32,975 nt of DNA, taken from a virus. Every line of letters starts with the position of its first letter. The stretch's first letter is position 1. Positions 3,421-31,665 of the stretch are shown here, one piece after another. A model generated the notes under the pieces. The model had not been told where the DNA came from, ran no database searches, and saw only the letters and a list, made by a program, of their open reading frames with translations. The position numbers were made by a program, and so were the translations under genes. The stretch spans positions 1-32,975 of the IMG/VR virus record IMGVR_UViG_3300006163_000011; one strand, 5' to 3'.

Positions 3421-3798
3421 TCAGGCGGCGATCGGGGTCAGCGCCACCGTCAGCGTCGAGATGGTCAGGGTGTCGCCGTTGGTGACGTTCTTGGAGGCGG
3501 TCAACGCCGCGGAGGCGAGGAAGTTGCCGGCCGACGAGGCGTCCCAGATGGAGATGTGGGTGATCGTCTCGGTCGCCGTCATCGAGAAGCCGGACAGCGA
3601 CGACAGGCTCATCGACCCGGCCGACGCCGCCGACCAGGTGATGGCGTTCCTCGTGGTGACCGTGGACGCGTTCGCCGTGCCGGCGCTGCCGGGGTCGCCG
3701 GTGTGGAGCTTGCAGAACGCGTTGACGCCCGTGTACGTGGTGTTCCGCCACACGTTGAGCTTGGCGTTGGCGTCGGCCGCCGCTAAACCGGCGGTCAC
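3421..3798 (-). CDS. Small virion-associated protein, function unknown
   Basis: The 125-residue product begins with GTG, and the upstream stop overlaps as GTGA. It contains the motif FCKLHTGDPGSAGTAN near residue 30, then Ser/Thr-rich beta-type sequence ending TLTVALTPIAA. LHTGDPG-type proteins are, from memory, common in actinophage structural clusters, but I know no firm function. The position between the zinc-ribbon genes suggests a head, neck or fibre accessory. Codon 5 is TTA (3786-3784), very early in the gene, where a decoding limit would act strongly. Confidence 0.55.
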   Translation of the reverse strand: MTAGLAAADANAKLNVWRNTTYTGVNAFCKLHTGDPGSAGTANASTVTTRNAITWSAASAGSMSLSSLSGFSMTATETITHISIWDASSAGNFLASAALTASKNVTNGDTLTISTLTVALTPIAA

Positions 3799-5783: not shown

Positions 5784-7220
5784 TCAGCGGGTCTGGAGCT
5801 GCACGAACGGCGACAGGGTCGAGGAGCTGTTGTTGTGGGGGGTGAGCGCCGACTGGAGCCACGGCCGGCCGTCGACGCGGGAGATGATCCGGTAGGCGAC
5901 CTGGTTGTTGGCGAAAAGGAAGTGCTCGCTGGAGTCGACGCGGACCTGCTGCCGGTCGCCGATCAGGTAGTAGCTCAAGTCCACGAAGTTGATGTCGCCG
6001 GTCGTGGACAGCTTCGGGACCTTCTCGGTGAAGATGACCGGCCGGCCGAGGATCGTCATCGGAGGCATGTCGGAGCCGGGCTGGGACCAGCCGCCGATCC
6101 AGACGGGGCCGCCGCCAGTCCCGACGCTCAGAGCCATCGTCGCCAGCTGCGGGAACGTGTCGTGGGAGCAGATCCACACCGCGCTGTCCAGCGAGGTCGG
6201 CAGCATGCGGCTGTACATGTTGACGATGTTTTCCCAGACGATCGTGCCCGTGGCCTGCCCGGACTCCTTCGTCACCGACACCGACGCGGGGCAAGAGATG
6301 AAGCCCTGCGGGGTGCCGTTGCCGGTCTCGGTCATGAACGCGACGTCTTCCGACCACGCGAATCCCATCGGAACACGCTCGTCGAACCACGCCGCGAACG
6401 CCGGAGCGTCAGCCAGCAATTCGGCAGGGACCTTGAAGAACCCGGTCAGCTTCTTCGCGTCCAGCACGACCTTCCCGAACGTCGCCGCGGATTCGGTGAG
6501 CTGCGCGGCCTCCTCCGTCCAGTAGAAGGTGACGCCGCCGAAGATGCTGGAGACGTGGCTGGTGTCGTCGACGGTCGGGATCGGCACCCGCAGCGTCGAC
6601 ATCGGGATGACCGTGGCCCGGCTGCGGACGATCGACTTCTCCAGCGCCAGCTGTAACAGCTCGGACCGCATGATCTCCGGGATCAGGAACCCGCCCGCGC
6701 CCGGCTCCTCCGAAGAGAAGCTGTTCTGGAAGTCCTTCACCCGCGTGAGCTTCGCGATCAGCTCGTCCCGGTCCGGCCGGGTCGACGGAGACCGCAGCTC
6801 GAAGATCGCCTTGCAGTACTCGCCGATGCTGTTCAGCCGGTCCTGCGGCTTGTACGCCCGCTCCAGCGCGGCACCAGCGGCCGTCTTGTTGTAGATGGCG
6901 CCGCGGCCACGCGACACCGCCGCGGTCCCGTCGACGGTGAGCTGCGGCTGACCGCCCGAAGCGGTGACGCCGAGCTTGGGGCCGCGCCGGGACCCGTTGT
7001 CGCGGATCATGTCGAACAGCACCGACTGGACCTGGTCGCGGACGTCGTCGACGGTGTCGGGGTTCCGCTTCAGGTAGTCCTTGGCGTAGGCGTCCATGAA
7101 CGCCTTGTTGTCGCCGTTGGCAACCGCTTCGGGGCTGAAGTACTCCGTCAGCCGCTTGTGGTCGTTCAGCAGCTCCATGATTCCGGCGCTGTCGGTCGGG
7201 ACCTTCGTCTTGCTGGTCAC
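5784..7220 (-). CDS. HK97-fold major capsid protein
   Basis: The 478-residue product begins with GTG, preceded by GGGAGG and overlapping the protease stop as GTGA. The first about 130 residues are charged and helical, like the delta/scaffold domain removed by the prohead protease. The rest fits phage capsid family proteins: GGFLIPEIMRSELL near residue 180, a stretch after GTIVWENIVNMYSRM, WICSHDTFPQLATMAL, GRPVIFTEKVPKL, and DLSYYLIGDRQQVRVDSSEH near the end. Order portal, protease, capsid is canonical. No separate scaffold gene is seen. Codon 189 is TTA (6656-6654), notable in a gene needing heavy expression. Confidence 0.9.
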   Translation of the reverse strand: MTSKTKVPTDSAGIMELLNDHKRLTEYFSPEAVANGDNKAFMDAYAKDYLKRNPDTVDDVRDQVQSVLFDMIRDNGSRRGPKLGVTASGGQPQLTVDGTAAVSRGRGAIYNKTAAGAALERAYKPQDRLNSIGEYCKAIFELRSPSTRPDRDELIAKLTRVKDFQNSFSSEEPGAGGFLIPEIMRSELLQLALEKSIVRSRATVIPMSTLRVPIPTVDDTSHVSSIFGGVTFYWTEEAAQLTESAATFGKVVLDAKKLTGFFKVPAELLADAPAFAAWFDERVPMGFAWSEDVAFMTETGNGTPQGFISCPASVSVTKESGQATGTIVWENIVNMYSRMLPTSLDSAVWICSHDTFPQLATMALSVGTGGGPVWIGGWSQPGSDMPPMTILGRPVIFTEKVPKLSTTGDINFVDLSYYLIGDRQQVRVDSSEHFLFANNQVAYRIISRVDGRPWLQSALTPHNNSSSTLSPFVQLQTR

Positions 7221-8479
7221 TTAGTGCCTCCCATCAGGCCTTGGCTCAGCACTGCCGACAGCAGGCCGGGGTCTATGTGGTCGCCCGGCACGTAGTCCGG
7301 GTTGATCTTCTTCATTGCGGCTTCGAGGGTTTCCCGCGCCTCGGCCTTGTTGATCAGGCCCTGCGTGGAGGAGAGCCTGGCCAGGGCGGCGCGGACACCG
7401 TTGGCGTTGGGCGGGTCGTCGGGGTGGTACTTGTACGGCAGCGCCCACGCCGCTTGCGTGTCGGGGTCGCCGGTGCGCTTCCCGGCGCAGATCCCGGCGT
7501 AGAACGTCTCGGGGTCGTCGGCCTGGGTGCCGTTGTGCCACGCCTTGGATGCGTCCCACGCCGAGTTATCAACGGCCGCGTCGGTCTCAGCGGTCGGCCG
7601 GGGAGCGGGTGCGGTGGCGTGGATCGTGACGGTTTCGCGGGCGGCCGTCTTGCTGCCCGGCATCGGCGGGATCGGCTTGATCTGCTTCCCGTCGGCGTCG
7701 AAGTAGTCGTTGTCGGTGTCGCCTTCGGGGGTGGCGTCGTCGTCGCCGTCACCGTCGGGGTCGAAGCGGGGCTTGCCGTCGGCGCCCATCACCCACCCGT
7801 CACCGATCGGCTTGTCACCGTCGGCGGCTACGGGCCGGGTGGCGTTGAGGACCGACAGATCCCACGCGTCCTTCACCGACCCGTCCTGGCCCCGCACCCG
7901 GTCCGCCAGCCCGTCAGCGACCGCCTCATGGTCCTTGTACCAGGTGGTGGCCCGCATCTTGTTCCGCCAGTACTCGGCGGTTTTCCCGGTGCGCTCTGCG
8001 TAGATCCCGGCGATGTTGTCGGACGCGTCGTCGAGCTGCTGCGCCAGGTCCCGCATGTCGGCGGCGTTCCCGATCCCGGCCGCGAACCCGTCGTGGATCA
8101 TCATCGTGGAGAACGGCGCCATCTCCAGGTGGCCGGGGCTGGCGGCCTGCGCGATGAACGACGCGGCGGAGGCGGCCAGGCCGTCGACGGTGATGGCGAC
8201 GATGCCGCGCCGCGCCTTCAAGCTGTTGTAGATGGCGATGGCGTCGAACACGTCGCCGCCCGGCGAGTTGAGGTGCAGGTCGATGTCACCGTCGATGCCG
8301 GATAACTCGGCGAGGAACCCGCCGGCGGACACGCCGAAGAACCCGATCTCGTCGAAGATGGAGACCAAGGTGGGTTCGCCGACGTCGGCCTTGTTGGTGA
8401 TCGACCACCAGCGCGGCTGGCCGCCCTGGGCGTTCTGTAGCCGGCGGGTGGACCGCATCGGCCGTGCTCCGCGCTCCAT
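7217..8479 (-). CDS. ClpP-like (S14) prohead protease
   Basis: The 420-residue product has an S14 serine-protease domain in residues about 35-200. DLHLNSPGGDVFDAIAIYNS is the ClpP strand-helix region, DGLAASAAS holds the probable nucleophile Ser104, and MMIHDG holds the probable catalytic His129. After residue 210 comes an acidic low-complexity segment and a second about 150-residue domain with no motif I recognise, perhaps scaffolding. The enzyme should cleave capsid protein N-termini during head maturation. ATG at 8479 has GGGAG eight bases upstream; ATG 8458 is an alternative. Codon 59 is TTA. Confidence 0.88.
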   Translation of the reverse strand: MERGARPMRSTRRLQNAQGGQPRWWSITNKADVGEPTLVSIFDEIGFFGVSAGGFLAELSGIDGDIDLHLNSPGGDVFDAIAIYNSLKARRGIVAITVDGLAASAASFIAQAASPGHLEMAPFSTMMIHDGFAAGIGNAADMRDLAQQLDDASDNIAGIYAERTGKTAEYWRNKMRATTWYKDHEAVADGLADRVRGQDGSVKDAWDLSVLNATRPVAADGDKPIGDGWVMGADGKPRFDPDGDGDDDATPEGDTDNDYFDADGKQIKPIPPMPGSKTAARETVTIHATAPAPRPTAETDAAVDNSAWDASKAWHNGTQADDPETFYAGICAGKRTGDPDTQAAWALPYKYHPDDPPNANGVRAALARLSSTQGLINKAEARETLEAAMKKINPDYVPGDHIDPGLLSAVLSQGLMGGTK

Positions 8480-8480
8480 A

Positions 8481-9920
8481 TCAGCGGCTCCCTAGTTCTA
8501 CCGGCTGGTATCCATCGCTGAGTACGCGCCGTACCAGCGCCTTCATGTCGTCGGGGTCCGCGGTGCGGGCGCGGATGGTGATGGACTCCCGGGCTGCCGC
8601 GGGCGGTCCGGCCGGTGTCGGCTCGGTGGCGGGCGCTTCGGGCGGCGACGGCACCCACGCGGGCGGCAGCGCCGGAGCTTGGGTGGCCTTCTCAACCACG
8701 TCCATGTCGGGCAGGCCGACCGTCTCCAGCACGTCGTGGGGGTCGTATCCGGCGTTGACGAGAGCCTGCGCCGCCTTCGCCTTCTCCGACAGCTCCAGAG
8801 CGGCTGTTTCGGCGTTTTCCGGCGACGGGTCCTGGTAGTCGAACTCGGCGACCTTCTCTGCCCCGCCGAATAACGGCAGGAGCTTGGAGTTGAGCGTGTC
8901 GCGGCGCCGGTTCAACCTGGGGATGACCTGCCAGGCGACGAACACCTCCTGCGCCGTCTGCGAGTTGGCCCGGTTGACGTCATCCGAGGTGCCCATCATG
9001 GCCTTGTGGATCCGCCACGCCTCCCGCAGCTCGTCCCGGTTCGCCAGCCGTAGTTCCCCGTACTCCATGTCCTTGTTGGAATGCGCGGACGGCATCCACT
9101 GCATCCCGTCCTCAAGCACACCGACATGCCCCGCCCGGGCCACGCCACGGTGAGACTCGCGCCACCGGTCGATCAGCTCATCGAACTGGACGTCGGTCAG
9201 CCGGTTCGGGACGGTGATGACACCGCCCGGATCGGCCCCGTTCAGGAACAGGTTCCGCTGGTATTCGGTCGCGTACCGCTGCTGCTGAATGTTCGGCATG
9301 ATCGACGCGACCGGGCCGGCACCCCGGTACGGGTCGAGCGGGTCCGGCCGCTTTTCGAGGATGACCTCGTCGCGGCGGAGCGGCACCTGCTCACCGCTGG
9401 GCCCGGTGTAGATCCAGCCGACCAGGTAGTCGTCCGGGTCGGGCACGGGTTCGAACCGGTCTGGGCGGACGTACCACATGGAGGTCGGGAAACCGGCTTC
9501 CATGTCCAGGACCCAGAACGTCTCCCCCGTCAGTTCCTCGTGCTGCTGGGACCCTTCGAAGAACTCGAACCGGGAGTGGAAGTCGTTCGGGTTGTTGATC
9601 AGCTGGATCGCGGCGTGCTGCACGATCTCTGTGCGTTCGTCGCTGCCTCGGTCGCCGGTGGTGTACCGGACCCGGCCGTCTTGCGGCGGTTTGCGGTACA
9701 GCTTCCAGGTGGGTGTTGCTGCTGATTCGGCCAGCAGGCTGACGATGCCGTAGAGGGTGCCGGACACGCCGTACTGGCGGAGGTGGTTCTCCCGGTCCTG
9801 GCGGCCCGCGCCGAGGTTGAACGATAAGCCGCGCTGGTAGCGGTAGCTCTCGGATAAGGGGACGGGCGGGCGGGTCTGGTTGCGGACGGCGGCGGTCAAC
9901 GTCCGTAACGGCGACCTCAT
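8481..9920 (-). CDS. Portal protein (HK97 type)
   Basis: A 479-residue product. ATG 9920 was chosen because it overlaps the upstream TGA as ATGA; the in-frame extension further upstream is Arg/Pro-rich shadow. Typical features: SGTLYGIVSLLAESAATPTW near the start, EELTGETFWVLDMEAG, VPLRRDEVILEKRPDPLDPY followed by RG, and MGTSDDVNRANSQTAQEVFV near residue 310, the conserved portal segment. It would form the dodecameric DNA channel at the capsid vertex. It carries four TTA codons (5, 22, 32 and 350), the most of any gene in the window, three within the first 32 codons. Confidence 0.9.
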   Translation of the reverse strand: MRSPLRTLTAAVRNQTRPPVPLSESYRYQRGLSFNLGAGRQDRENHLRQYGVSGTLYGIVSLLAESAATPTWKLYRKPPQDGRVRYTTGDRGSDERTEIVQHAAIQLINNPNDFHSRFEFFEGSQQHEELTGETFWVLDMEAGFPTSMWYVRPDRFEPVPDPDDYLVGWIYTGPSGEQVPLRRDEVILEKRPDPLDPYRGAGPVASIMPNIQQQRYATEYQRNLFLNGADPGGVITVPNRLTDVQFDELIDRWRESHRGVARAGHVGVLEDGMQWMPSAHSNKDMEYGELRLANRDELREAWRIHKAMMGTSDDVNRANSQTAQEVFVAWQVIPRLNRRRDTLNSKLLPLFGGAEKVAEFDYQDPSPENAETAALELSEKAKAAQALVNAGYDPHDVLETVGLPDMDVVEKATQAPALPPAWVPSPPEAPATEPTPAGPPAAARESITIRARTADPDDMKALVRRVLSDGYQPVELGSR

Positions 9921-10210
9921 TGAGGCGCCTGGGTGTCGCTGCCGGTGAGCGCTTCGAGGGCAAGCAGCGACAGGCCTGCGACGAGGTAGCCGACGATGTG
10001 GTGCCACTGCCAGGCGGCGTAGTCGATGAGCGCGAAGCCGGCCAACGTCAGAGCGAGGGTGCGGAGCGCGGCCCAGCCGATCGAGAGGCGTCCGGCGGCG
10101 CGGCCGAGGGCCTGCGCGGCGAGGACCAGGAGCGGACGGCGGGTGCGCTTGGGGCGGTCGGCGGCGCGCTCAGCGGTGTAGCTGGTGCGCAAGGTGCCGA
10201 TGAACGCCAT
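9917..10210 (-). CDS. Small two-helix membrane protein upstream of portal
   Basis: The 97-residue product has a basic N-terminus (residues 12-28), then hydrophobic segments at about 47-62 and 70-88. Its stop overlaps the portal start as ATGA, so the genes are coupled. No holin-specific motif is recognised; two membrane segments and position at the head of the structural operon would also fit an unrelated membrane accessory. No good Shine-Dalgarno is seen before ATG 10210, so the true start may lie elsewhere or the message may be leaderless. Confidence 0.5.
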   Translation of the reverse strand: MAFIGTLRTSYTAERAADRPKRTRRPLLVLAAQALGRAAGRLSIGWAALRTLALTLAGFALIDYAAWQWHHIVGYLVAGLSLLALEALTGSDTQAPQ

Positions 10211-10230
10211 GTCACGGAGGATACCGCGTA

Positions 10231-10251
10231 GGTGTTACCACCGGTAGCACC
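10231..10251. promoter_or_regulatory. Imperfect palindrome upstream of the portal operon
   Basis: The 21-base segment from GGTGTTACC to GGTAGCACC is an interrupted dyad (outer arms GGTG/CACC and inner TACC/GGTA). It sits 20 bases upstream of the leftward membrane-protein gene and 25 bases before the rightward tRNA. It may be an operator for the late head operon. No convincing -35/-10 pair was found with it. Confidence 0.3.
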
Positions 10252-10275
10252 CTCTGACTAGCATGAATGCGGCCA

Positions 10276-10351
10276 GCCCCCGTGGCCCAACGGCAGAGGC
10301 ACCCGCCTTAAAAGCGGACTGATCCGGGTTCGAATCCCGGCGGAGGCACCA
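10276..10351 (+). tRNA. tRNA with UAA anticodon (reads UUA, Leu), short variable loop
   Basis: A 76-base cloverleaf can be drawn. The acceptor arm is GCCCCCG (10276-10282) with CGGAGGC (10341-10347), with one C-A mismatch. The anticodon arm has loop CTTAAAA (10307-10313) and anticodon TAA at 10309-10311. The T arm is CCGGG-TTCGAAT-CCCGG (10324-10340), and the discriminator A plus CCA are encoded. The anticodon predicts decoding of UUA leucine. Bacterial tRNA-Leu normally has a long variable arm, but here the variable loop is five bases (10319-10323). There is also a C-A mismatch at the top of the anticodon stem. Function and charging are therefore uncertain. Confidence 0.8.
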
Positions 10352-10421
10352 GAGCCGTAAACCAGCTGGCCGGTTGGCGCGTCTCAGTGTCGCCCTACCC
10401 GCCTATCCCCCGGGGTGTGTC

Positions 10422-10898
10422 GTGTACCAGCAGCCTGCACCTGCGGCCCCATGGTGGCGACGTGTCCCGTGGTGGGCGTGGCCGGCCGGCGCGGTGGGGG
10501 CTGTGGGTGTGGTGGCGGTGGCGTTGACACCGGACACGGGCCAGCACACGGCAGCAGCCCCGACAGCCCGGGCGACGCACGCGACGGTGTCCCCGGCTGC
10601 GAAGGCGAAGGCGGGGCCGCCGACGTCGGCTCACGTCACGAAGGCGCAGTACGGGGCACGCTGGCCGTTCGTGCACGTGAAGGCGGGGACGGTGCGGTGT
10701 GTCCTGTCGCCTGCGGGGATCGGCGAGGTGACGTTCACGGCGGATGGCGGCCCGACGTGGGCGTTGAACGGGACCGCGCTCGATCATGGGGTGCCGGATA
10801 TTCCGAAGCGGGAGTGGCGGAAGGACCCGGCGATTCCGGGGGCGCGGATCGATGTTGCGCCGTTGCGGGAGCCCGTCGCGAGAGCATGCGGCCTGTAG
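10422..10898 (+). CDS. Membrane-anchored DUF2511-like protein
   Basis: The product is about 158 residues from GTG 10422; an upstream TTG at 10374 is possible. Residues about 8-35 hold WWRRVPWWAWPAGAVGAVGV, a basic-then-hydrophobic anchor or uncleaved signal. An Ala/Thr/Pro linker follows, then a C-terminal domain beginning YGARWPFVHVKAGTVRC and ending CGL, the WPF-x(n)-C pattern I associate with DUF2511 (YebY-like) exported proteins. It is oriented opposite to the neighbouring late genes, next to a tRNA, as expected of a moron gene that could be expressed in the lysogen. The domain name is from memory; the biochemical role is unknown. Confidence 0.6.
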   Translation: MYQQPAPAAPWWRRVPWWAWPAGAVGAVGVVAVALTPDTGQHTAAAPTARATHATVSPAAKAKAGPPTSAHVTKAQYGARWPFVHVKAGTVRCVLSPAGIGEVTFTADGGPTWALNGTALDHGVPDIPKREWRKDPAIPGARIDVAPLREPVARACGL

Positions 10899-10899
10899 A

Positions 10900-11100
10900 T
10901 CAGTCCCACAGTTCGGCGATGAGGGCTCGTTCCGTCGCGGTCAGGTCTTCGCCGAACAGGTACGCCGTGTTGAGTGTCACGGCCTGCTGTGATGGCTGGT
11001 TCTGGCGGTGTGTGCGGATCGGCTGGTCGGCGTCGTGGCCGCGCGGTAGGTCACATGCGCTGTGGCCCCAGTAGACACGGCAGGTCTCCGCATCGCTCAC
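10900..11100 (-). CDS. Small hypothetical protein
   Basis: A 66-residue product from GTG 11100, which overlaps the upstream stop as GTGA. It begins VSDAETCRVYWGHSACDLPR with two cysteines and a histidine, and ends in an acidic helix (GEDLTATERALIAELWD). It is the last gene of a leftward five-gene accessory run that starts at the Phd-type antitoxin, and it converges with the DUF2511-like gene one base away. No function recognised. Confidence 0.5.
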   Translation of the reverse strand: MSDAETCRVYWGHSACDLPRGHDADQPIRTHRQNQPSQQAVTLNTAYLFGEDLTATERALIAELWD

Positions 11101-11387
11101 GGCAGCTCGATCCCGTCGAGGCGGTCTGCCGCCAGATCCAGCGCCACGGCCACTCCCTGCGCTGTGATCACGTCGCCGGGATGGGCGCGCAGCTGCTCGG
11201 CGCAGTACCGGATCTGTTCGGGGAGGGTACGGCGCTTCACCGCGAAGAACAGCGACTCGGCCTGCGGGCCGACCGGCCAATCCATCGGCGGCTTAGGTGT
11301 GCGCTCCGGCTCCGGTTCGAAGATCTTGGCGACGCTCACGGGCTCGGACGATGACCAGTCGACGTCACCCTTCGGATACTCAGGCAT
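11097..11387 (-). CDS. Small hypothetical protein
   Basis: A 96-residue product starting MPEYPKGDVDWSSSEPVSVA. It is Pro/Glu-rich in the first 40 residues, followed by helices (PEQIRYCAEQLRAHPGDVIT and AVALDLAADRLDGIEL). It overlaps both neighbours by 4-8 bases, so it is translationally coupled. The last helices are typical of small actinophage accessory proteins, but no family is recognised. Confidence 0.5.
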   Translation of the reverse strand: MPEYPKGDVDWSSSEPVSVAKIFEPEPERTPKPPMDWPVGPQAESLFFAVKRRTLPEQIRYCAEQLRAHPGDVITAQGVAVALDLAADRLDGIELP

Positions 11388-12665: not shown

Positions 12666-14000
12666 TCAATACCGGAACGACCTGTACCGCGGCTGGCGGC
12701 CGAAGTCCCGCTCAGCCACCACATACCGCAACGCATCCAGGCCGTGGTCATCAGCCTTCACCGGCTCCTCCTTCAACCCCCCAGCGCCACCCGGCTTCAC
12801 CGCCCACACATACCCCGGCACCTCCTCAGCCGTACACGTAGGCCGCTTCGCCTCCACCAGCTCCGGATCACGAGCCACCAGCGAATCCCGCATCACGAAC
12901 AGCCGCGGCCTGCCGTCCCCCGCCGGCCGCAACCGGGTCTGCACCGCCTGGATTCCCTCGGTGACTGCCTTGTGCGCCGCGGTCGTGGATACCCCAAGTT
13001 CCCGCTCCAGCACCGCGCGGCCTTCCGCGTCGTGGTCACACACGATCGCGCGCGGCCTGGGCTCGATCCACCGGCCTCCAGGGGCGACAACGCGGAGGAT
13101 GTCGGCGGCGTGCTGATCCACTGTCTTACGGGTGTGGTACCACTCCCGATACAGGTACAGGCGACCGTCCGGATCTTCAGCGAAACACTGGGTGACCTGC
13201 GGATTGGTGTACCCGAAGTCGATACCCCACCACCTGTCCCACTGCGGCGGCGGCGAGAAGTGGTCGATCAGGTGCACCGCGGGGTCCCAGCCGTCATAGA
13301 TGATGCCCTCGGCTGCAGCCCACTTCCCGTCATACAGCCGCAGACGCCGCACCCCGGTGAGCGACTGCAGCTTCGCCATGTAGTCGACACCGCGCGGCGT
13401 GAAGCTGCCGTCGCTGTTGACGTAGGCGGGGTTGTCGACGTGCCGGGAGATCAGTCGGGTCATGTGGCCGGCGTCGGCGCGTTCGTTCATCCAATGCTGC
13501 GGGTGGGCTGGGTTGCATGCGGCGATCTGCTGCTGCCAGGGGAGACGGGAGTGGCGTAGCCGGGTGCCGAGCGTTTCCCAGTCGGTGATGGTCAGCTCGG
13601 TGGCCTCATCACAGAAGATCAAGTCGTATTCGGAGGAGAGGACTTTCTCGGGTTTGTCGAGGCCGCCGACGACGATCCGGGATCCGTTGCTGTACCGGTA
13701 GCAGGGCGCTTCTTTGGGGGACCCGCCGAACCAGCGGACCACATGCTCGGCCAGCGCGGCGGCGGCGACCTGTTCCTCGAAGGTGACCAGTGTCGTGGAG
13801 CCGAGGGACACGCCGGTTTTCCGGGCGATGAGGCACCGGATCTTCGGGTACTTCAGCGCGGCCAGGTGCAGCCGGTATAAGGCGGCGAGGCTCTTGCCGG
13901 TGCCGGCGGGCCCGTCGAGGAGGACTTCGCTGGCGCGGGTGGCGAACAGGTCACGGGCTGCGCCGCGCGGCTCGTACCGGACGACGGTCGGAGTGGTCAT
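12666..14000 (-). CDS. terL: Terminase large subunit (TerL)
   Basis: A 444-residue product from ATG 14000, which shares a base with the upstream stop (TGATG). The N-terminal ATPase has Walker A GPAGTGKS (residues 30-37) and Walker B LIFCDEATE (about 127-135). The C-terminal RNase H-like nuclease has GIDFGYTN (Asp about 261), IVCDHDAE (Asp about 322/324) and DDHGLDALRY near 417-426, giving the expected acidic metal-binding set. It would translocate DNA into proheads and cut the concatemer. Codon 41 is TTA. The portal gene is not directly next: an accessory block of about 2.7 kb separates them. Confidence 0.93.
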   Translation of the reverse strand: MTTPTVVRYEPRGAARDLFATRASEVLLDGPAGTGKSLAALYRLHLAALKYPKIRCLIARKTGVSLGSTTLVTFEEQVAAAALAEHVVRWFGGSPKEAPCYRYSNGSRIVVGGLDKPEKVLSSEYDLIFCDEATELTITDWETLGTRLRHSRLPWQQQIAACNPAHPQHWMNERADAGHMTRLISRHVDNPAYVNSDGSFTPRGVDYMAKLQSLTGVRRLRLYDGKWAAAEGIIYDGWDPAVHLIDHFSPPPQWDRWWGIDFGYTNPQVTQCFAEDPDGRLYLYREWYHTRKTVDQHAADILRVVAPGGRWIEPRPRAIVCDHDAEGRAVLERELGVSTTAAHKAVTEGIQAVQTRLRPAGDGRPRLFVMRDSLVARDPELVEAKRPTCTAEEVPGYVWAVKPGGAGGLKEEPVKADDHGLDALRYVVAERDFGRQPRYRSFRY

Positions 14001-14314
14001 CAGTCGGGCCACTCGGCGACGTACACATACGACTGAGGCCAGCGGTCCACGATCCGGTAGATCACCGTCTGGTTATCCGCTTCGATCTTCACCACGGGCC
14101 CGGTCGGGGTGTCGTAGGTGGTCGTCCCGATCATCTGCCCGGCGATGATCTCTTCCATGATCACGCCAGAGATGAGGATGCGCGGGTCGGCACGGTTGAT
14201 GGTGATCCATTCGGCGGGGTGGGTGTCGTCTGGCTGGTGCCGCTGCATCCACAGTTCGCCGATGTCGGGCGGGTGGATGGGGCTGCCGAAAGTCGTGAGG
14301 AGATCGGGGCTCAC
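14000..14314 (-). CDS. Hypothetical protein between terminase subunits
   Basis: A 104-residue product beginning with GTG (MSPDLLTTFGSPIHPPDIGE). It is coupled on both sides (GTGA upstream, TGATG downstream). The last 50 residues are beta-type (GTTTYDTPTGPVVKIEADNQ then VIYRIVDRW). Its position suggests a packaging accessory, but no known family is recognised and no catalytic residues stand out. Confidence 0.5.
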   Translation of the reverse strand: MSPDLLTTFGSPIHPPDIGELWMQRHQPDDTHPAEWITINRADPRILISGVIMEEIIAGQMIGTTTYDTPTGPVVKIEADNQTVIYRIVDRWPQSYVYVAEWPD

Positions 14315-30966: not shown

Positions 30967-31665
30967 ATGACCCCCCGCAGTTGGGCCACCGCCCGCGTCA
31001 CCCGGACCGTCGCCCGCGGCGCCACCGTCGTCCTCATGGGCGCCGCCGTGCTCATCGCCACCGGCGACGGCTTCGCCCAGTCCTACGCGGGCCTGCTCGG
31101 CTGGGCGCACGAACACCGGCTGCACGGCTGGCGCGCCGACTCGTTCCCGCTGCTGGTCGACCTGTTCGTCGCCATCGGCGAAATGGGGCTGTTCCTGCTC
31201 GCGATCGACGGCTTTCAGCTGGCCCGGCGCCGCGCCCTCTCATGGCTGGATTTGGCACTCCCGGCAGCGACCGCAACCGCCGGGTGGGGTGTGTCGCTGG
31301 CATTCAACGTCGGCCGCATCAGAGGCGGGTCGCTGGCCGACCAGGTGACGGCCGCCGTCGCACCCGTCGCGGCGATGGTGGGGCTGCTGATCCTGCTGCG
31401 GACCCTCCACCGCTACGTCACCCGCCCCGACGCGCCCTCCGACACCATTTCCGACACCGCTCAGGACCATGTCGACGCAGGTCAGGCCACTGATCACAGT
31501 CTCGCGTCGGCAGTGCGTTCAGCAGTCGCCGCGGGCCTGACCAAGACCGCCGTGGCCGAGGAATACGGGATCAGCCGGTACCGGCTCGGGCAGCTCCTGG
31601 CCGACACCCCCACCGACAGCCCAGCGGCACTCAACGGAGCTTCGCCGGACGCGGAGGTTCCGTGA
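30967..31665 (+). CDS. DUF2637-type membrane protein with C-terminal HTH
   Basis: A 232-residue product. Hydrophobic helices at about 20-36, 61-80, 94-112 and 128-146 and the motif SYAGLLGWAHEH plus FPLLVDLFVAIGEMGLFLLA are the pattern I know as DUF2637, found beside FtsK-type transfer genes in actinomycetes. Residues about 175-215 carry a small HTH (GLTKTAVAEEYGISRYRLGQ). It may be a spread or pore component that also binds DNA. Its stop overlaps the FtsK-like start (TGATG). Confidence 0.75.
   Translation: MTPRSWATARVTRTVARGATVVLMGAAVLIATGDGFAQSYAGLLGWAHEHRLHGWRADSFPLLVDLFVAIGEMGLFLLAIDGFQLARRRALSWLDLALPAATATAGWGVSLAFNVGRIRGGSLADQVTAAVAPVAAMVGLLILLRTLHRYVTRPDAPSDTISDTAQDHVDAGQATDHSLASAVRSAVAAGLTKTAVAEEYGISRYRLGQLLADTPTDSPAALNGASPDAEVP

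Follow-up and report, generated by a model that had tools for sequence, protein, structure and literature searches.

The window analysed here, the whole 32,975-base stretch of an IMG/VR virus record (IMGVR_UViG_3300006163_000011), carries at positions 10276-10351 (+) a tRNA gene that we regard, on balance, as a functional short-loop tRNA-Leu(UAA) of the actinomycete type, acquired by a soil-actinomycete phage and decoding UUA for its late genes. The tRNA is probably of an ordinary actinomycete kind, borne by a phage for codon compensation, and the case for this lies in one codon that is nearly absent from about 90 relatives and is used in the carriers of the tRNA. On this account the gene would probably derive from the chromosome of an actinomycete or from a mobile element, its product would be charged with leucine by the host leucyl-tRNA synthetase (LeuRS) and, presumably expressed during infection, would decode UUA in the late messages for head, portal and terminase proteins. 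As UUA would be decoded by its own tRNA, the phage could keep the late-gene TTA codons avoided by relatives that lack the tRNA, with a likely benefit during infection.

ARAGORN identified the gene as Leu(taa), the sole tRNA found in the window, and it matched Rfam RF00005 over its full length at 53.5 bits (E = 5.4e-9; gathering cut-off 29 bits). The linear numbering of the molecule coincides with Sprinzl numbering. The features on which the first-pass annotation had drawn were all recovered from the sequence and ARAGORN, namely the anticodon UAA (10309-10311), a variable loop of 5 nt (CTGAT, 10319-10323), the mismatches C4-A69 in the acceptor stem (10279/10344) and C27-A43 in the anticodon stem (10302/10318), and an encoded CCA (10349-10351). 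The third mismatch, C13-A22, is part of a 3-bp D stem with 13-22 unpaired, which is normal among short-loop leucine tRNAs of the phage and actinomycete kind. With its leucine anticodon, loop within 4-6 nt, 3-bp D stem and A73, the tRNA belongs with the short-variable-loop tRNA-Leu, among 155 of which the 3-bp D stem was present in 118 and A73 in 135; the class II or bldA type has a variable arm of at least 10 nt with a stem, against the 5-nt loop found here.

Among the 26 viral relatives found through the portal protein, two (L125 and L122) have the tRNA at the same place and most lack it. L125 matches the window at 99.7% identity, and the portal of L122/L180 is 93% identical to that of the window. 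Between the window and L180 the tRNA is unchanged (75/75 identical) and the flanks differ at 51 of 337 positions; at the flank substitution rate, zero changes in 75 has a chance of about 5e-6. Because of this contrast the tRNA is probably kept by selection, and the sequence comparison makes it very probable that it is functional; a pseudo-tRNA is unlikely given the same conservation. The mismatches C4-A69 and C27-A43 are conserved too in L122/L180, and could weaken the tRNA. Homology between L122 and the window stops exactly at the 3' end of the tRNA, which therefore lies at a module border. The stretch 10210-11380, about 1.2 kb from the portal gene to the next late gene, carries the tRNA on the other strand, contains no recognised protein family and is missing beyond the tRNA in L122.

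The tRNA lies between the portal gene (8481-10007, -; PHROG portal, E = 3.8e-59) and the terminase large subunit gene (12666-14012, -; E = 1.7e-37), on the strand opposite to the late genes. According to the codon table, TTA occurs at codons 34, 51, 61 and 379 of the portal gene and codon 45 of the terminase gene, as well as at codon 59 of the head maturation protease gene (7217-8479, -; E = 4.6e-64) and codon 189 of the major head protein gene (5784-7220, -; E = 9.4e-53). Besides these, a small late ORF (3421-3798, -) has TTA at codon 5, with TTA in L122 too, and another late ORF (123-725, -), for which no relative was matched, has it at codon 86.

In the four late proteins, TTA makes up 13 of the 242 leucine codons in the window and L180 (5.4%) and 17 of 9443 (0.18%) in 89 tRNA-less high-GC relatives, among which 85 show no TTA in these proteins at all (Fisher p ~9e-14, a value that overstates independence as the carriers form one clade). 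The other leucine codons change by no more than about twofold between carriers and non-carriers. The codon read by the tRNA is hence enriched in its carriers, which represent a single clade. Within the window, TTA accounts for 9 of 271 leucine codons in the late genes and 1 of 289 in the early genes (p = 0.009), although third codon positions are more often A or T in the early genes. The description of the late genes as TTA-rich, made at first pass, thus holds as a relative statement, by comparison with close relatives that have practically none. The accompanying idea of a UUA decoder supplied by the phage agrees with these data, as the tRNA is conserved and its presence accompanies late-gene TTA codons.

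Some observations count against codon compensation. TTA is frequent in the late genes of two relatives, L194 (8/131) and L196 (6/75), and no tRNA was found in either record, both of which are fragmentary contigs. Furthermore, neither a consensus promoter nor a terminator was found at the tRNA gene, which runs opposite to the late genes. For the fragments with TTA-rich late genes (L194/L136 and L196), we predict that the missing parts of these phages hold a UUA-reading tRNA; when closer relatives of L194 were sought, the best match was no nearer than 76% identity.

The short loop, which had been taken as anomalous and as implying a new kind of tRNA, proved to be widespread in actinomycete chromosomes and phages. 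The tRNA of the window is 82% identical to a chromosomal tRNA of Nonomuraea. In two Nonomuraea species and Thermoactinospora the short-loop tRNA sits between the peptide deformylase and Bax-inhibitor genes, and is therefore a core gene. In 121 genomes of the order of Nonomuraea and Thermoactinospora the UAA tRNA that recurs has the short loop, and no clear long-arm form was seen. In a class-wide sample of actinomycetes, 135 genomes had a recognisable UAA tRNA, of which 82 had only loops of 5-6 nt, 7 had loops of 7-9 nt and 46 had loops of 13-17 nt, as recovered by a pattern that may miss tRNAs with unusual arms; the Streptomyces and Kitasatospora genomes examined had the long-loop form. These counts suggest that the 5-6-nt loop is the usual form of tRNA-Leu(UAA) in most of the actinomycetes sampled and the long-arm bldA form a minority, which would bear on the evolution of UUA-based control. 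The chromosomal tRNA-Leu(UAA) of Nonomuraea, Thermoactinospora and Amycolatopsis resembles that of the window in anticodon, 5-nt loop, 3-bp D stem, A73, A15-U48 and the 5' acceptor strand GCCCCCG; the window tRNA differs in being phage-borne, in A replacing G69, in the C27-A43 mismatch and in its encoded CCA. As a rule, the chromosomal short-loop gene is present in single copy in the actinomycetes sampled (loci L312, L295, L288 and L313-L333).

A search for homologues in phages, with a pattern that couples a UAA anticodon loop to a class I variable loop, matched at least 120 viral contigs, and nearly all of those scanned were called tRNA-Leu(UAA). Among the loci examined, 41 leucine tRNAs with other anticodons are likewise short-looped. 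When the anticodon was masked, the nearest neighbour was a short-loop leucine tRNA of another anticodon for 100 of 113 short-loop Leu(UAA) tRNAs, in a neighbour pool where leucine made up 50 of 566. This backbone, common to UAA, CAA, UAG, GAG, CAG and AAG anticodons, points to LeuRS. The short-loop tRNA-Leu of phages and phage-derived clusters, such as those of Bixzunavirus and Corynebacterium phage, shares with the window tRNA a leucine anticodon, a 5-6-nt loop and the D-arm motif; it often lies in multi-tRNA arrays, whereas that of the window is a lone gene in the late region. A systematic account of short-loop tRNA-Leu was not found in the mostly open-access literature searched, and the one explicit mention concerns a short-loop, phage-derived tRNA-Leu(TAG) in Mycobacterium mucogenicum (PMC6582537).

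The short loop had also led to the proposal that another synthetase charges the tRNA and that UUA stands for another amino acid in late proteins, which we consider extremely improbable. In E. coli the LeuRS determinants are A73, A15-U48, G18G19 and A20a, and the long variable arm is dispensable, as variants without it stay active (PMC9976931). The window tRNA has every element of this list, so its charging with leucine by the host LeuRS is very probable from its sequence. The human mitochondrial tRNA-Leu(UUR), which also lacks the arm and is charged by LeuRS via A73 and A14 (PMC9976931), is a comparable case of a leucine tRNA without a long arm in an unrelated lineage. Recoding should place non-leucine residues opposite UUA in relatives; at the seven TTA codons of the portal, protease, head protein and terminase genes, leucine instead occupies 67% of 572 residues in relatives outside the clade, against 69.5% at their other leucine columns, and the recoding candidate was rejected. 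Leucine is the best-fitting residue class at these columns by 376 log units. UUA is most likely leucine in this phage because the TTA columns behave as leucine columns, and the backbone common to other leucine anticodons and the normality of the short loop in actinomycete tRNA-Leu(UAA) argue in the same direction. Relatives were also viewed for stop-codon recoding: in-frame stops in tblastn stretches were few, several of them lay opposite gaps, and they followed no consistent pattern.

Other explanations of the tRNA were weighed against codon compensation. The tRNA might stand in for a host tRNA-Leu(UAA) that an anti-phage nuclease or toxin has cleaved or inactivated, with the late TTA codons as a by-product. 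There are documented cases of phage tRNAs that withstand or outnumber host nucleases (eLife 2023, PMC10264068; for Septu and tRNA-Tyr, PMC13096335), and conservation as a lone gene outside any array suits such a role, but counter-defence alone does not predict a TTA enrichment limited to carriers and late genes, and we judge it unlikely. That the tRNA is a passenger, recently captured from a mobile element, of little function and with stem mismatches due to drift, accords with its two mismatches, the lack of a consensus promoter, the end of L180 homology exactly at its 3' end and its rarity among relatives; a decaying gene is, however, hard to reconcile with 0/75 substitutions against 51/337 in the flanks, with the Rfam score and with the TTA enrichment in carriers, which makes this reading quite unlikely. 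Lastly, the tRNA might complement a host tRNA disrupted when a prophage integrates, as in mycobacteriophage Fionnbharth. Actinophages provide precedents for such tRNA-dependent lysogeny, with phage Gaia as a Leu-CAA example (PMC10865867), but the tRNA here is located among late genes and the window proteins searched yielded no integrase and a single weak excisionase-like match (30967-31665), so we consider it very unlikely; the label of prophage given at first pass is likewise not borne out, the window being a whole virus record.

Codon compensation, the reading preferred here, raises the question of host. Named genomes with portal relatives mostly belong to Streptomyces, Kitasatospora, Nonomuraea, Thermoactinospora and Amycolatopsis (41-52% identity), and the closest cultured phage by portal is Streptomyces phage Dagobah (40%); the host is an actinomycete. 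The Streptomyces bldA tRNA-Leu(UAA) reads UUA and would serve the same codons, but it is of another structural type, with a long variable arm, a gene of 84-85 nt and developmental regulation. To call the window tRNA a bldA substitute presupposes a Streptomyces-like host with a scarce long-arm tRNA-Leu(UAA), whereas the chromosomal UUA reader of the Nonomuraea type is itself short-form, and outside Streptomycineae bldA may not have its developmental role (PMC4255298). It is unlikely, though conceivable, that the tRNA gives late genes a translational licence in mycelium poor in UUA decoding, a phage version of bldA-type control; if so, virion production would hinge, through the TTA codons confined to the genes for portal, protease, capsid and terminase, on the tRNA that the phage itself supplies.

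Related tRNAs were also observed on plasmids and in other loci. Short-loop tRNA-Leu(UAA) genes occur on the Streptomyces plasmids NZ_CP134214 and NZ_CP108868 (L148, 58-132; L150, 2001-2077), are absent from the PLSDB gene table, and might provide a way round the long-arm bldA tRNA of Streptomyces. The nearest non-UAA neighbour of the window tRNA, on a plasmid of Streptomyces sp. T12 (L149, 3001-3077), is Thr(AGT) according to ARAGORN; with a backbone near that of the window tRNA, C33 and a CAG close by, it is perhaps a degenerate Leu(CAG). In Nonomuraea thailandensis, a seven-tRNA array that looks acquired (L269, 4030-4589) includes a short-loop tRNA-Leu(AAG) with A34. Upstream of the portal gene of one relative lies an odd tRNA (L123, 3631-3702, -; L181, 7631-7702, -) with an Rfam score of 44.7 bits and an anticodon loop of 6 or 8 nt (GTTCGA or CGTTCGAG), to which ARAGORN gives no assignment. 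In several relatives (L126, L128, L133, L134 and L147) the portal-matching ORF is much longer, at 760-1311 codons, and may encode a portal-protease fusion.
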